A stretch of DNA of 64,000 nucleotides from contig NZ_AUEW01000008.1 in the NCBI RefSeq assembly GCF_000426185.1, forward strand, positions 124,001 through 188,000. The letters run 5' to 3'. The position numbers and the translations under genes were made by a program. The stretch is from Cellulomonas sp. URHD0024 (GTDB lineage: Bacteria; Actinomycetota; Actinomycetes; Actinomycetales; Cellulomonadaceae). This document shows, piece by piece, positions 28,747 to 43,440 of the stretch. How positions within the stretch are numbered: position 1 is the stretch's first letter; the number at the start of each line of letters is the position of its first letter. The notes beneath the pieces were generated by a model. That model saw only the letters and a program-made list of their open reading frames with translations. It was not told the origin of the DNA and searched no databases.

Positions 28747-30759
28747 TCAAGACACGAGCGCCGTCGCCATCCCCCGTGCCTTGACCAGCGTCTCGACGTA
28801 CTCCTCGTCGGGGTCGGACAGCGCCGTGACCGCGCCGCCCACGCCGAAGGTGGTTCCGCCGGGGCCGGTGACGATCGTGCGGATCACGATGCTCAGGTCG
28901 GCCGCACCCGTCAGCGAGTACCAGCCGAGCGCACCCGAGTAGACGCCGCGCGGGCCGCCCTCGAGCTTCTCGAGGATCTGCACCGAGCGGAGCTTGGGCG
29001 CGCCGGTCATCGACCCGCCCGGGAACGCCGCGACGGTGCACGCCACCGCCGACCGGCCCGGCGTCAGCTGGCCGCGCACCGTGCTCACCATCTGGTGGAC
29101 CAGCGGGAACGTCTCGATGTGGAACAGGCGCGGGACGTGCACCGAGCCGATCTCGCAGACCGTCGACAGGTCGTTGCGCAGCAGGTCGACGATCATCAGG
29201 TTCTCGGCGCGGTCCTTGACGCTCGTCCGCAGGTCCGTGCAGAGCTCGGCGTCCTCGTGCGGTGACCGCCCGCGCGGCCGGGTGCCCTTGATCGGCTTGG
29301 TCTCGACCGCTCCGCCGGCGCTGACGGTGAGGAACCGTTCGGGCGAGGCGCTCAGCACGGACACCGGGCCGCACGCGAGGTAGGCGCCGTACGGGACCGG
29401 GCTGAGAGCGCGCAGCCGCAGGTACGTCTGCCACGGGTCGACCACGGCGTCGGTGCGGAACTCGTTGGTCAGGCAGAGCTCGTACGACTCGCCGCGGCGG
29501 ATGTAGTCCTGGCACTCGGCGACGAGGCTGACGTACTCCCGCCGACCGTGGCGGGGCTCGAAGAGCTTCTCGATGTCGTCGAGGTCGAGGCTCGACGGGG
29601 CGACGTCGGGAACGGCAGACGGCGTGATCGCCGCGATCCACCCCGGCAGGTCGTCGAGCCAGCGTTGCGACGACCGCGAGAGCTCGTCGTCCGCGGGGTG
29701 GTGCAGGGCGAGCGCGTGGACGTCGCCGGTCTCGTGGTCGACGAGCAGCGCACGCTCGGCGAACACCAGGTGCGCGTCGTCGTGCTCGGCCGCGACGCCG
29801 ACGTCCGTCGCCATCGTCTCGTCGCGCAGCTCGTAGCCGAGGTACCCGACGTAGCCGAGGGCGAACGGGTGGGGCAGGTCCGACGACACGGGGACGGCGT
29901 AGCGCGCCAGGGACTCCTCCAGGTAGGAGAACAGGTCGCCGGCGTGCTCGGTGACGGTGCCGTCGGACCCCGTGACCCGGACGTGGCCCGCGCCCCGGCG
30001 GTAGGAGACGGTGTGCGCCCGGACGCCCCGGCCGGAGCCGAGGATCGAGAACTGCCCGACGCCGCCGCTGTCGAGCCAGAACGCGGTGCGGTCGTCCCGG
30101 TAGAACGCGTCGAACAGGTCGACGGCCGACACACCGTGGGCGACGCGACGGGACCGGACCTCGTAGCGGGCGGCGGCGTCCGACGAACCACCGGCCAGCC
30201 GCAGGAAGTTCCGGATCAGCGTGTGGCCGTGCTCGCTCAGCACCGACTCCGGGTGGAACTGCACCCCCCAGACGGGTCTCTCGCGGTGACGCACCGCCAT
30301 GACCGTGCCGTCGTCGGCGCGGGCGACGACCTCGAGCGGGTGGGTGACGTGGTCGATCATCAGCGAGTGGTACCGGACGGCGTCGAACTCCTCCGGAACG
30401 TCCGCGAACAGCTCGTCGCCGTCGTGGCGCACCCGGGAGACCTGGCCGTGCATCGGCGGGTTCGCCGGGACGACAGCGGCGCCGGCGAGGTGCCCGACCA
30501 GCTGGTGGCCCAGGCAGATCCCGAGGACCGGCAGGTCCGTGTCGGTCAGGAGCCGGGCGCAGATGCCGACGTCCGAGGGCAGCTCCGGCGTACCCGGCCC
30601 AGGCGAGAGGATCACGGCGTCGAACGCGTCGAGGTCGAGCGTTTCCCACGGCACGTCGTTGTGCACGACGACGGGAGCCTCCCCGCACACCTCCGCGACG
30701 AGCTGGAACAGGTTGTAGGTGAACGAGTCGTAGTTGTCGACGATCAGGACGCGTGTCAC
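28747..30759 (-). CDS. pabAB: Aminodeoxychorismate synthase, fused PabA-PabB
   Basis: A 670-residue fusion. Residues 1-190 are a class I glutamine amidotransferase (nucleophile Cys in GICLGHQ, catalytic His-Glu in FHPES). The rest is the chorismate-binding domain, with the nucleophilic Lys in KPIKGTRPRG, which marks aminodeoxychorismate synthase; anthranilate synthases have Ala there. The enzyme turns chorismate and glutamine into 4-amino-4-deoxychorismate. The GTG overlaps the PabC-like stop (GTGA). It is the last gene of the 14-gene operon, implying dedicated p-aminobenzoate supply. A role in folate synthesis is possible but less likely given the neighbours. Confidence 0.93.
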   Translation of the reverse strand: MTRVLIVDNYDSFTYNLFQLVAEVCGEAPVVVHNDVPWETLDLDAFDAVILSPGPGTPELPSDVGICARLLTDTDLPVLGICLGHQLVGHLAGAAVVPANPPMHGQVSRVRHDGDELFADVPEEFDAVRYHSLMIDHVTHPLEVVARADDGTVMAVRHRERPVWGVQFHPESVLSEHGHTLIRNFLRLAGGSSDAAARYEVRSRRVAHGVSAVDLFDAFYRDDRTAFWLDSGGVGQFSILGSGRGVRAHTVSYRRGAGHVRVTGSDGTVTEHAGDLFSYLEESLARYAVPVSSDLPHPFALGYVGYLGYELRDETMATDVGVAAEHDDAHLVFAERALLVDHETGDVHALALHHPADDELSRSSQRWLDDLPGWIAAITPSAVPDVAPSSLDLDDIEKLFEPRHGRREYVSLVAECQDYIRRGESYELCLTNEFRTDAVVDPWQTYLRLRALSPVPYGAYLACGPVSVLSASPERFLTVSAGGAVETKPIKGTRPRGRSPHEDAELCTDLRTSVKDRAENLMIVDLLRNDLSTVCEIGSVHVPRLFHIETFPLVHQMVSTVRGQLTPGRSAVACTVAAFPGGSMTGAPKLRSVQILEKLEGGPRGVYSGALGWYSLTGAADLSIVIRTIVTGPGGTTFGVGGAVTALSDPDEEYVETLVKARGMATALVS

Positions 30760-41959: not shown

Positions 41960-43440
41960 GCGTCGACCGACTTCCGCTCGTCGAGCGCGTCATCCAGGAG
42001 CGCGTCCAGCTCGGCGTCGTGGGCGCTGACGTGCACGCCCGTCGGGCCGATCATCGCGAAGGCCACCGCGGACCCGACGAGGCACAGCGCCGCGGCGACG
42101 ATCATCGTGTCGCCGAGGGAGTCCACGAACGCGATGCGGAACGCGGCCGGGTCGGCCGCCGTCACGCCGTGCAGGCGGGTCTCGAAGAACGAGCCGAGCG
42201 CGGCGACACCGAGCAGGACACCGAGCTGCTGCGCCGTCTCGTTGATGGCCGAGGTCATCCCGGCCTTGCTGGGCTCGGCCACCGAGACCGACAGGTAGGC
42301 GCGCGGAGGGTTGAACATGCCCATGCCCGCACCCACGAGCACGCAGGCGGGGATGACGGCGGTCCAGTCGGAGCCGGGCTCGACGACGAGCGGGACGAGC
42401 AGCAGCCCCAGTCCGACGAGACCGACCGCGATGCCCACGGTCAGGTGCTTGGGGATCGACTCGATCGAGCCGGTGACCGCGGCAGCGACGAAGACGGCGA
42501 GCGTGAGGGGCAGGAACCGCAGGCCGGTCTCCCAGGGCGTGTACTGCAGCACCTGCTGCACGTAGGCGACCATCAGGAACACCCCGGCCATGGTGCCCAG
42601 GCCGAAGAGGAACGTCGCGATGTTCAGGCCGTTGAAGGTGCGGTTCCGGAAGTGCTCGACCTCGAACAGCGGATGTGCGGCGCCGCGCTGCTGCAGCACG
42701 AGCGCGACGCTGAGCAGGACCGACGCGTTGAGCAGCGTCACCGTGAGGTTGCTGGTCCAGCTGGCCTGGCCGGCCTCCAGGAACCCGAGCACCGAGGTGA
42801 AGCAGGCCGCGGTGAAGAGCGCGAGGCCGACGAGGTCGATGGGCTTGCCGGGCTGCGCGCGGCGGCGCCAGTCGCGTTGCACGACGATCGAGCCGATCGC
42901 GACGACGCCGATGGGGACGTTCAGGAAGAAGATCCACCGCCAGTCGTAGAAGTCCGTGGCGGCGCCGCCGATCAGCGGGCCGACGGCGATCGCGAGGCCG
43001 GCGGTCGCACCGAGCAGGCCGATCGCACGGTTGCGGGCTGTGCCCGTGAAGCGCTCCGACAACAGCGCCGGGCCGACGGCGAACAGCACCGCTCCGCCGA
43101 GTCCCTGCAGGAACCGGCTGGCGTTCAGCTGCGTCATCGAGGTGGCGATGCCGCACGCTCCGGACGCGACCGTGAAGACCACCAGGCCGACGAGGAAGAC
43201 GCGGAGCTTGCCCCAGCGGTCCGCGGCTGTCCCGGCGGCGACGAGCGCGACCACGAGACCGAGCGCGTACGCGTCGAGCGCCCACTGCAGCGACCGGAAG
43301 TCGGCCTGGAACTCGCGCTGGATGCTCGGCAGCGCGACGTTGATGACGGTCAGGTCCAGCAGCAGCATGAAGGTCGCGAGGCAGACCGTCACGACCAGCA
43401 GGACGTCCTGCAGCTTGCCGTTCGGACGCGCAGAATCCAC
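41956..43440 (-). CDS. MFS exporter, DHA2/EmrB-QacA type
   Basis: A 494-residue transporter with about 14 membrane helices. Helix 1 (LLVVTVCLATFMLLLDLTVI) with NVALPSIQREF, and the motif C-like QGLGGAVLFAVGPAL segment, fit the DHA2 drug:H+ antiporter family. It opens the 14-gene biosynthetic operon and probably exports its product and protects the producer. The GTG start follows an A/T-rich AGGAGAAAAATAAAA ribosome-binding leader, which stands out in this GC-rich DNA and may give strong, unstructured translation initiation. Confidence 0.9.
   Translation of the reverse strand: MDSARPNGKLQDVLLVVTVCLATFMLLLDLTVINVALPSIQREFQADFRSLQWALDAYALGLVVALVAAGTAADRWGKLRVFLVGLVVFTVASGACGIATSMTQLNASRFLQGLGGAVLFAVGPALLSERFTGTARNRAIGLLGATAGLAIAVGPLIGGAATDFYDWRWIFFLNVPIGVVAIGSIVVQRDWRRRAQPGKPIDLVGLALFTAACFTSVLGFLEAGQASWTSNLTVTLLNASVLLSVALVLQQRGAAHPLFEVEHFRNRTFNGLNIATFLFGLGTMAGVFLMVAYVQQVLQYTPWETGLRFLPLTLAVFVAAAVTGSIESIPKHLTVGIAVGLVGLGLLLVPLVVEPGSDWTAVIPACVLVGAGMGMFNPPRAYLSVSVAEPSKAGMTSAINETAQQLGVLLGVAALGSFFETRLHGVTAADPAAFRIAFVDSLGDTMIVAAALCLVGSAVAFAMIGPTGVHVSAHDAELDALLDDALDERKSVDA

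Follow-up and report, generated by a model that had tools for sequence, protein, structure and literature searches.

We report on a gene block in a 64,000-nt stretch of the Cellulomonas sp. URHD0024 genome (the whole stretch is referred to as the window) that appears to encode a thiotemplated pathway working without modules of nonribosomal peptide synthetases (NRPS) or polyketide synthases (PKS). Positions 28747-43440 are filled without gaps by 14 contiguous minus-strand genes according to the open reading frame listing and start-codon analysis. Read 5' to 3', they encode an MFS exporter, an alpha/beta hydrolase (ABH), a carrier protein (ACP1), a thioester reductase (TR), the ligase ANL3, a transglutaminase-like protein (TG), a second carrier (ACP2), an SDR-like protein, ANL2, a SerRS-like amino acid:carrier ligase (aaCP), ANL1, an FAD hydroxylase (FMO), a PabC-like protein and PabAB. 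The initial annotation had described 14 overlapping genes, and with the chosen starts all 13 junctions do overlap, by 4, 4, 4, 8, 11, 4, 4, 4, 4, 1, 4, 1 and 4 bases from 43440 (5') to 28747 (3'), i.e. by 1-11 bases. Protein families were called with hmmscan against Pfam (E limit 0.01) and NCBIfam, where the results for six of the 14 proteins are the best 25 matches listed; no condensation or ketosynthase domain is among the Pfam matches of the operon proteins.

The gene set recurs, which places it beyond chance, in another actinobacterium (G1426) of the same class, a different order and a different family, found with the TG profile A2 (ten TG proteins). There, 13 of the 14 genes lie in the order of the window on two contig ends with 37-61% identity (Table 1). 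The end of contig C40 carries, in the order and orientation of the window, PabAB to TG followed by the C-terminal half of ANL3, and the start of contig C53, found by a TR search, carries the N-terminal half of ANL3 (residues 1-257), TR, and ACP1 and ABH as one fused protein, next to which is a class-II DAHP synthase. Since the two ANL3 halves meet at residue 257 and at two contig ends, the simplest reading of the split is a break in the assembly. No exporter homologue was detected in the stretches searched (15 kb of C53 and 20 kb of C40). The TG proteins of the window and of G1426 are sisters in the TG tree (100/100 support). A search with aaCP in the family of G1426 matched nine of 230 genomes at E 1e-15 and only G1426 itself reached 54% identity, so that one other copy of the full operon is known.

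A sister operon of the anthranilate type, L020 with ANTHRANILATE, is present in Streptomyces sp. NK08204 and was among nine loci from the contig profile search with alignment A1. It shares with the window TG, ACP2, an ABH-ACP1 fusion, TR, ANL3, aaCP and ANL ligases, in the order TG, ACP2, an ANL ligase, ABH-ACP1, TR, ANL3, a TrpE-TrpG fusion and aaCP, and it differs in having the TrpE-TrpG fusion in the place of PabAB; this fusion is an anthranilate synthase (TIGR01815, 954.5 bits, cut-off 739.15). A class-II DAHP synthase gene lies approximately 6 kb upstream of TG with an MMPL transporter gene between them, and a second ANL gene, whose product is 54% identical to the ANL in the TG operon, adjoins the DAHP synthase gene. 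In 34 kb of this locus there is no match to PabC, FMO, the SDR-like protein or the MFS exporter. The only aaCP match in the 7.6 Mb NK08204 genome is located in the operon, which argues that the link between aaCP and TG is not due to chance. The strain is not named in the open-licence literature searched.

In three more genomes (L066, L068 and L096) the loci have in common ABH, TR, ACP1, ANL3, TG, an MMPL-like gene, an ANL ligase and TrpEG, together with a further protein that by eye resembles a flavin monooxygenase; in L066, ACP2 overlaps the ANL gene by one base and ACP1 overlaps ANL3. Our best evidence that an aminobenzoate is a building block is that the core stays constant while the source of the aromatic amine beside it is swapped, and by sequence comparison these loci represent a single conserved pathway whose aminobenzoate supply, p-aminobenzoate (PABA) or anthranilate, can be exchanged. 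A single thiotemplated pathway without NRPS or PKS modules, as originally suggested for the window, thus finds strong support in the 13-gene copy of G1426 and the anthranilate-type operon of NK08204, and the grouping as one pathway is near certain.

Table 1. Genes of the operon, 5' to 3', and the two flanking Pfam-matched genes; identities are to the proteins of G1426 and NK08204.
Gene	Predicted product	Length (aa)	Position	Strand	Matches and motifs	G1426 (%)	NK08204 (%)
(flank)	DUF998 protein, upstream		43963..44688	-	Pfam		
MFS	DHA2/EmrB-type exporter, first operon gene	494	41956..43440	-	PF07690; TIGR00711 221.5 bits, just below 230.2		
ABH	Alpha/beta hydrolase	287	41096..41959	-	PF12697/PF00561	53	43
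ACP1	Free carrier protein, fused to ABH in both relatives	79	40860..41099	-	PF00550 E 7e-8	55	52
TR	Stand-alone thioester-reductase-like domain	368	39757..40863	-	PF07993 (NAD_binding_4) E 1e-31	49	41
ANL3	Ligase of a clade seen beside TG	505	38247..39764	-	PF00501	56 (N-terminal half), 61 (C-terminal half)	43
TG	Transglutaminase-like protein	310	37325..38257	-	C204-H237-D253 (triad in homologues, core model)	37	33
ACP2	Free carrier protein	74	37104..37328	-	PF00550 E 4e-9	46 (52 aa)	
SDR-like	SDR-like Rossmann protein	245	36370..37107	-	GxGxxG start	54	
ANL2	Short aryl-acid ligase, salicylate/dihydroxybenzoate-AMP ligase type	453	35012..36373	-	PDB salicylate-AMP ligase E 8e-62	47	
aaCP	SerRS-like amino acid:carrier-protein ligase	281	34170..35015	-	PDB 3mey	54	34
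ANL1	Benzoate/anthranilate-CoA-ligase-like	504	32656..34170	-	PF00501, PF13193	43	
FMO	FAD aromatic hydroxylase	386	31499..32659	-	PF01494 (FAD_binding_3)	49	
PabC-like	Class IV pyridoxal-phosphate enzyme, probable aminodeoxychorismate lyase	247	30756..31499	-	PF01063; K99	38	
PabAB	Fused GATase and chorismate-binding aminodeoxychorismate synthase	670	28747..30759	-	PF00117, PF00425, TIGR00553, PIKGT	49	
(flank)	TM2 protein, downstream		28045..28503	+	Pfam		

Third-position GC ranges between 0.91 and 0.97 across the 14 genes compared with 0.90-0.95 in ten neighbours, and the GC content is 72.6% in the operon and 71.7% in the remaining window; composition therefore does not mark the operon as foreign. 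Judged from their families, neither of the flanking proteins looks biosynthetic.

For the aminobenzoate supply, PabAB passes what is expected of an aminodeoxychorismate synthase: it scores above the pabB equivalog cut-off (TIGR00553, 343.7 bits, cut-off 328.4; TIGR01823, 415.9 bits, is below its cut-off of 442.55) and the PIKG lysine pointed out earlier is indeed present in the translation, as PIKGT. The PabC-like protein matches Aminotran_4 (107 bits, cut-off 28.5) and its K99 is invariant in the three aligned proteins. Because a second candidate PabB/PabC pair is encoded in the same genome (G000:C1:564-566 kb), the PabAB of the operon need not serve folate synthesis. PABA as the aryl unit is thus partly supported, by the pabB profile and by the swap to anthranilate synthase in the sister operon. 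The solved structures closest to FMO are PgaE and rifampin monooxygenase.

Among the ligases, the nearest kinds to ANL1 in PDB are a benzoate-CoA ligase (E 6e-48) and an anthranilate-CoA ligase (E 3e-37). The pocket of ANL2, HNYALACPG in the window as well as in G1426, aligns with HNFALACPG of the salicylate ligase 5wm2 and HNYPLSSPG of the dihydroxybenzoate ligase 1md9, and its letters match those of salicylate ligases, with the Asn of the 2-OH pocket and a Cys at the DhbE Ser240 position, a rule in which we take the Cys to be the mark of salicylate. ANL2 scores 225.8 of 723.55 bits against TIGR02275 and hence falls short of equivalog rank; going by the pocket, its substrate may be a 2-hydroxy acid, for example 4-aminosalicylate. 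This acid stays plausible in that the covered part of the paper on the salicylate ligase Ccb2 mentions an earlier in vivo incorporation of 4-amino-2-hydroxybenzoate (PMC5416915). In ANL3 the A10-type Lys is kept in 13 full-length homologue rows and in the C-terminal piece from G1426. A role of ANL3 as a diazotase was considered and dropped: NF058622 (AvaA6) is ninth among the matches listed (75 of 975 bits) and there is no nitrite-forming gene among the 14.

The match of aaCP to PDB 3mey (E 1e-15) is followed by weaker matches to type-2 SerRS, and NF005479 (amino acid--[ACP] ligase) is matched below its cut-off (E 3e-27, 95 of 357 bits). C99, E127 and C244, invariant in five of five homologues, are aligned to the Cys/Glu/Cys set of 3mey, which in amino acid:carrier ligases presumably binds the metal. 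With a SerRS-like core in a short protein and this residue set, aaCP fits a predicted amino acid:[carrier protein] ligase.

Both ACP1 and ACP2 are above the PP-binding cut-off and sort into two score groups, with the NK08204 ACP2 as a weak case; three ACPS-family (phosphopantetheinyl transferase, PPTase) matches were found in the host genome. ACP1 has two NCBIfam matches, to the cispentacin carrier AmcB (E 1.3e-4) and then to NF005480 (E 0.0068). As carriers of the latter family are, we assume, the partners of amino acid:carrier ligases, this match gives a faint hint that ACP1 may carry the aminoacyl group. TR reaches 77.9 of 213 bits against TIGR01746. Nearly all gene families assigned initially were recovered by hmmscan, with the exception of the SDR: the protein has no Pfam or NCBIfam match at E 0.01 and no match to PDB sequences, and YYAGK in the window is YYAGN in the G1426 orthologue (two sequences), i.e. 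the Lys of YxxxK is replaced by Asn. An SDR dehydrogenase should therefore not be assumed; a single-sequence structure model (pLDDT 37.5) was not used.

In the TG alignment (49 rows) C204, H237 and D253 never vary where a row covers them (46/46, 45/45 and 45/45, respectively), and they constitute the predicted Cys-His-Asp triad of a papain-like core. Five of ten members of the family match Transglut_core at E up to 0.01 (best E 3.5e-8). The core of the model aligns with transglutaminase/N-acetyltransferase-type folds, including arylamine N-acetyltransferases and geldanamycin amide synthase; this is a likeness at the fold level only, and the Pfam matches of TG at E 0.01 include no arylamine N-acetyltransferase or ansamycin amide synthase family. 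A search of PDB sequences with the TG profile gave no match to the core and, as its best match, a helix-turn-helix (HTH) protein (E 0.014) that aligns with the N-terminal part: residues ~30-80 weakly resemble the HTH-type regulator structure Rv1828. The initial annotation had TG joining two carrier-bound units, which is consistent with the invariant triad, the conserved ACP1/ACP2 pair and the family neighbours; the reaction itself is a proposal.

We observe the gene content, its conservation as a unit and the invariant active-site residues, and from these we infer every reaction of the route, including its amino acid and other substrates, the direction of the amide, hydroxylation, reductive release, export and the product. 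With a probability of just under one half (roughly 0.48) the operon is a dedicated NRPS- and PKS-free thiotemplated pathway to an aminobenzoyl-amino acid amide. Chorismate would be converted to PABA by PabAB, for which there is profile evidence, and PabC, and FMO probably hydroxylates PABA to an acid of the 4-aminosalicylate type, as the pocket of ANL2 suggests. ANL2, perhaps with ANL1, would load the aryl acid on ACP2, which is the likely aryl donor because a ligase gene adjoins ACP2 in L020 and L066, and aaCP would load ACP1 with a small amino acid, for which Gly or Ala is the probable choice. The aryl group would move onto Cys204 of TG and from there to the amine of the amino acid on ACP1, giving the amide. 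The ABH-ACP1 fusions in G1426 and NK08204 and the ACP1-TR neighbourhood point to ACP1 as the carrier of the growing chain, from which TR would release the product reductively as an aldehyde or alcohol; given the same fusions, ABH may act on ACP1 as an editor or hydrolase. The exporter would remove the product.

Several points weigh against this route. No aaCP was found in the 20-kb stretches of L066, L068 and L096, and ACP2 was detected in L066 only, so that aminoacyl loading and the two-carrier layout are each supported for only some of the sister loci; moreover, no carrier gene is next to aaCP in the window. The PabC-like protein passes no cut-off of a lyase equivalog for aminodeoxychorismate (best among the matches listed, 59 of 273 bits), hydroxylation ortho to a carboxylate is electronically odd for a flavin enzyme, and the para-amino geometry offers no intramolecular trap for an aldehyde. 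For TG, the match of the window protein to Transglut_core (E 0.009, 16.7 bits) is below the gathering threshold of 23 bits, and the model has a mean pLDDT of 63.7 with a best Foldseek E of 0.011. Finally, the route gives no step to ANL1, ANL3 or the SDR-like protein and does not explain why three ANL ligases are needed.

The amide might also be formed in the opposite sense, with TG transferring the aminoacyl group to the aniline nitrogen of a carrier-bound aminobenzoyl unit and TR acting on the aryl thioester to yield, by reduction, a benzaldehyde or benzyl alcohol, in which case ANL3, ACP1 and TR would be a split carboxylic acid reductase acting on the aryl acid. We consider this unlikely, while noting that the three genes, counterparts of A, T and R in such enzymes, are together in the window, G1426, NK08204, L066, L068 and L096, that the folds to which the TG core aligns include enzymes that acylate arylamines (arylamine N-acetyltransferases, geldanamycin amide synthase), and that amicetin contains PABA with an aminoacylated nitrogen. 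Quite improbable is a short albicidin-like arylamide made without NRPS, for which ANL1 (PABA-like) and ANL2 (4-aminosalicylate-like) would feed two aryl units to be joined by TG and capped by the amino acid. Two aryl-acid ligases of different pocket types are kept in G1426, NK08204 has its second ANL beside the DAHP synthase gene, and the Ccb2 paper, in the part covered, mentions 4-amino-2-hydroxybenzoate incorporation in vivo (PMC5416915); such a product has three units for only two carriers, and there is no sign of iteration.

TG may alternatively not condense at all, as papain-like folds are often proteases, and may edit or hydrolyse the carriers. ANL amide synthetases exist, and ANL1 or ANL3, the latter being the most similar protein between the window and G1426, would then make the amide directly from the acyl adenylate. 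To this we assign a small chance: ABH already supplies a hydrolase on the ACP1 side, and carriers are found beside TG in 39 of 42 loci with varied ligase sets, a count that, the loci having been collected by TG, is silent on TG-free loci. PABA is a folate precursor and overlapping gene starts are common in GC-rich genomes, so the block might be folate-type PABA genes beside unrelated genes. Such separate pathways, a possibility raised in the initial annotation, have next to no chance in view of the 13-gene synteny in the distant G1426, which contradicts them; together with the other candidate PabB/PabC pair this rules out a chance or folate-only grouping.

For the aminobenzoyl-amino acid amide route, known systems offer partial parallels. 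AdmF of andrimid, a transglutaminase homologue, is proposed to join two carrier-bound acyl units and resembles TG in proposed role, by description only; the system differs in that andrimid is a PKS/NRPS hybrid. We take PDB 3mey to be the Bradyrhizobium amino acid:carrier ligase Bll0957, to which aaCP is similar in its SerRS-like core, its aligned Cys/Glu/Cys and its short length (~185 residues align), and from whose system it departs by the absence of an adjoining carrier gene.

The closest working analogue is the NRPS-independent thiotemplated closthioamide (cta) pathway of Ruminiclostridium cellulolyticum, for which a transglutaminase, CtaJ, is proposed in the part of the report covered (PMC6772006). 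As far as that part goes, both have a chorismate-derived benzoate (para-substituted in cta), free carriers (CtaE/CtaH), separate loaders and amides formed without NRPS modules. Unlike the operon, closthioamide has an ATP-grasp loader, beta-alanine, the peptidyl transferase CtaG, the thioamide synthetase CtaC and a diaminopropane, while the operon has SerRS-like and ANL loaders, TR and a hydroxylase; the likeness to CtaG/CtaJ is by description only. No ATP-grasp loader or AANH thioamide synthetase family was detected among the Pfam matches of the 14 proteins at E 0.01 or among the NCBIfam matches listed, and the operon is therefore not a member of the closthioamide type. For mycemycin (mym/mye), the proposal is that a salicyl group on the small carrier MymE, with MymF as the PchD-like ligase, combines with anthranilate into an arylamide and that no NRPS condensation is involved (PMC5867642, as covered). 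It differs in that the amide is credited to the ketosynthase-like MymG and anthranilate comes from tryptophan, and the rows of its Table 1 that were covered list no TG, aaCP or TR. No description of the operon gene set was found in the titles and abstracts of the open-licence literature, subscription papers being outside this scope. The operon thus represents a real and conserved pathway, uncharacterised as far as the open-licence literature shows, and a variant of NRPS-independent thiotemplated assembly.

The distribution of TG depends on the query. A single-sequence TG search of genome contigs gave no relative. With the window TG as query, and its own genome included, three of 297 genomes of the order, one of 396 of the phylum sample and two of 81 of the genus were matched; these counts are too low, given that the NK08204 TG matched 28 of 392 Streptomyces-group genomes and profile A2 matched 11 of 394 in the class (with the host genome again counted; best five candidates per genome scored in both searches). 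Seven of the 28 Streptomyces-group matches are weak (E 9e-12 to 3e-7), and their stretches (L081 and L100-L105) are without a TG-type gene set. After removal of six proteins shorter than 250 aa and the duplicate L067 from 49 rows (L128 replacing the shorter L109), 42 TG loci remained, with a carrier in 39, an ANL ligase in 32 and an aaCP ligase in 22. These numbers are neither independent nor a test, as near-copies remain (L068/L096; L013/L063/L064/L065), stretch lengths differ and the carrier profile was built partly from the same loci; likewise, calling TG common to all locus types is circular since the loci were collected by TG. The tree program warns of long branches, which makes deeper placements uncertain.

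Besides the aminobenzoate type, TG occurs with an AurF-like oxygenase, a carrier and aaCP, accompanied by a nitronate-monooxygenase-like protein, by a FAAL-like ligase and a second diiron protein, or by PabAB and ketosynthase/chain-length-factor-like (KS/CLF) proteins (L013 type). A further arrangement has TG, ANL3, a FAAL-like ligase and an ANL, mostly with TrpEG. We can imagine, and think it rather unlikely at present, that TG loci represent a general NRPS-free amide chemistry of actinobacteria, where units tethered to small carriers are coupled by a Cys-His-Asp protein that has an N-terminal domain of its own, and where loading enzymes and aromatic supply are swapped in modular fashion (PABA, anthranilate, fatty-acyl-type ligases, or aminoacyl units next to AurF-like oxygenases). 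If true, the anthranilate branch with TR could lead to benzodiazepine-type ring systems without NRPS and the PABA branch to a new, linear amino aldehyde or amino alcohol bearing an aminobenzoyl (perhaps 4-aminosalicyl) group. Amides of specialised metabolites are mostly credited to NRPS condensation domains, and few single-protein condensing systems on free carriers are known. That one set of TG, carriers, reductase and ligase is found beside PABA genes in some loci and anthranilate synthase in others yields a testable prediction of which component chooses the acid and which forms the bond, and two free carriers and 14 short genes should make reconstitution easy. Searches by NRPS/PKS signatures may miss such loci.

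Other TG loci were seen in passing. A recurrent cluster (L013 = L067, L021 = L065, L022 = L064, L023, L024 and L063) comprises KS/CLF-like genes, ANLs, TG, an AurF-like oxygenase, a carrier and aaCP; PabAB is present too, the L024 stretch excepted, and a linear plasmid of Streptomyces sp. NBC_00335 carries one of the copies. TG, an AurF-like oxygenase, a carrier, aaCP, a nitronate-monooxygenase-like protein and a hydrolase are grouped in L070-L072, L076, L078, L079, L097, L099 and L106, a combination that suggests N-oxidation of a carrier-bound amino acid. Plasmid pTM2 of Tistrella mobilis (L018) carries genes for an aaCP-like ligase, a nitronate monooxygenase, a diiron oxygenase and a protein of 84 aa, with no TG match. 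The 'AurF' of L073, L075, L077, L098, L111 and L112 (23-25% identity) is probably another ferritin-like protein, and the TR match in L071 (30%) is 9 kb away from TG. A different TG locus is present in the same genus (L019 in G744, ~5990-17950), where there are ANL-type genes, a gene for a peptidyl-carrier-like protein just before TG, an SDR and a gene that by eye is TrpRS-like.

Just past the end of the window, L142 (G000:C6:188001-207900) has genes for a FAAL-like and an ANL3-like ligase (the latter 31% over 528 aa) along with a carrier, acyl-CoA-dehydrogenase-like matches and a match to the PPTase family; tblastn at E 1e-4 gave no TG match. A second aminoaryl locus, L143 (G000:C6:230000-249900), begins on the same contig ~42 kb past the window end and contains PabAB (57% to that of the Streptomyces L013), KS/CLF-like genes, an AMP-binding ligase, Aminotran_4 proteins and a carrier.

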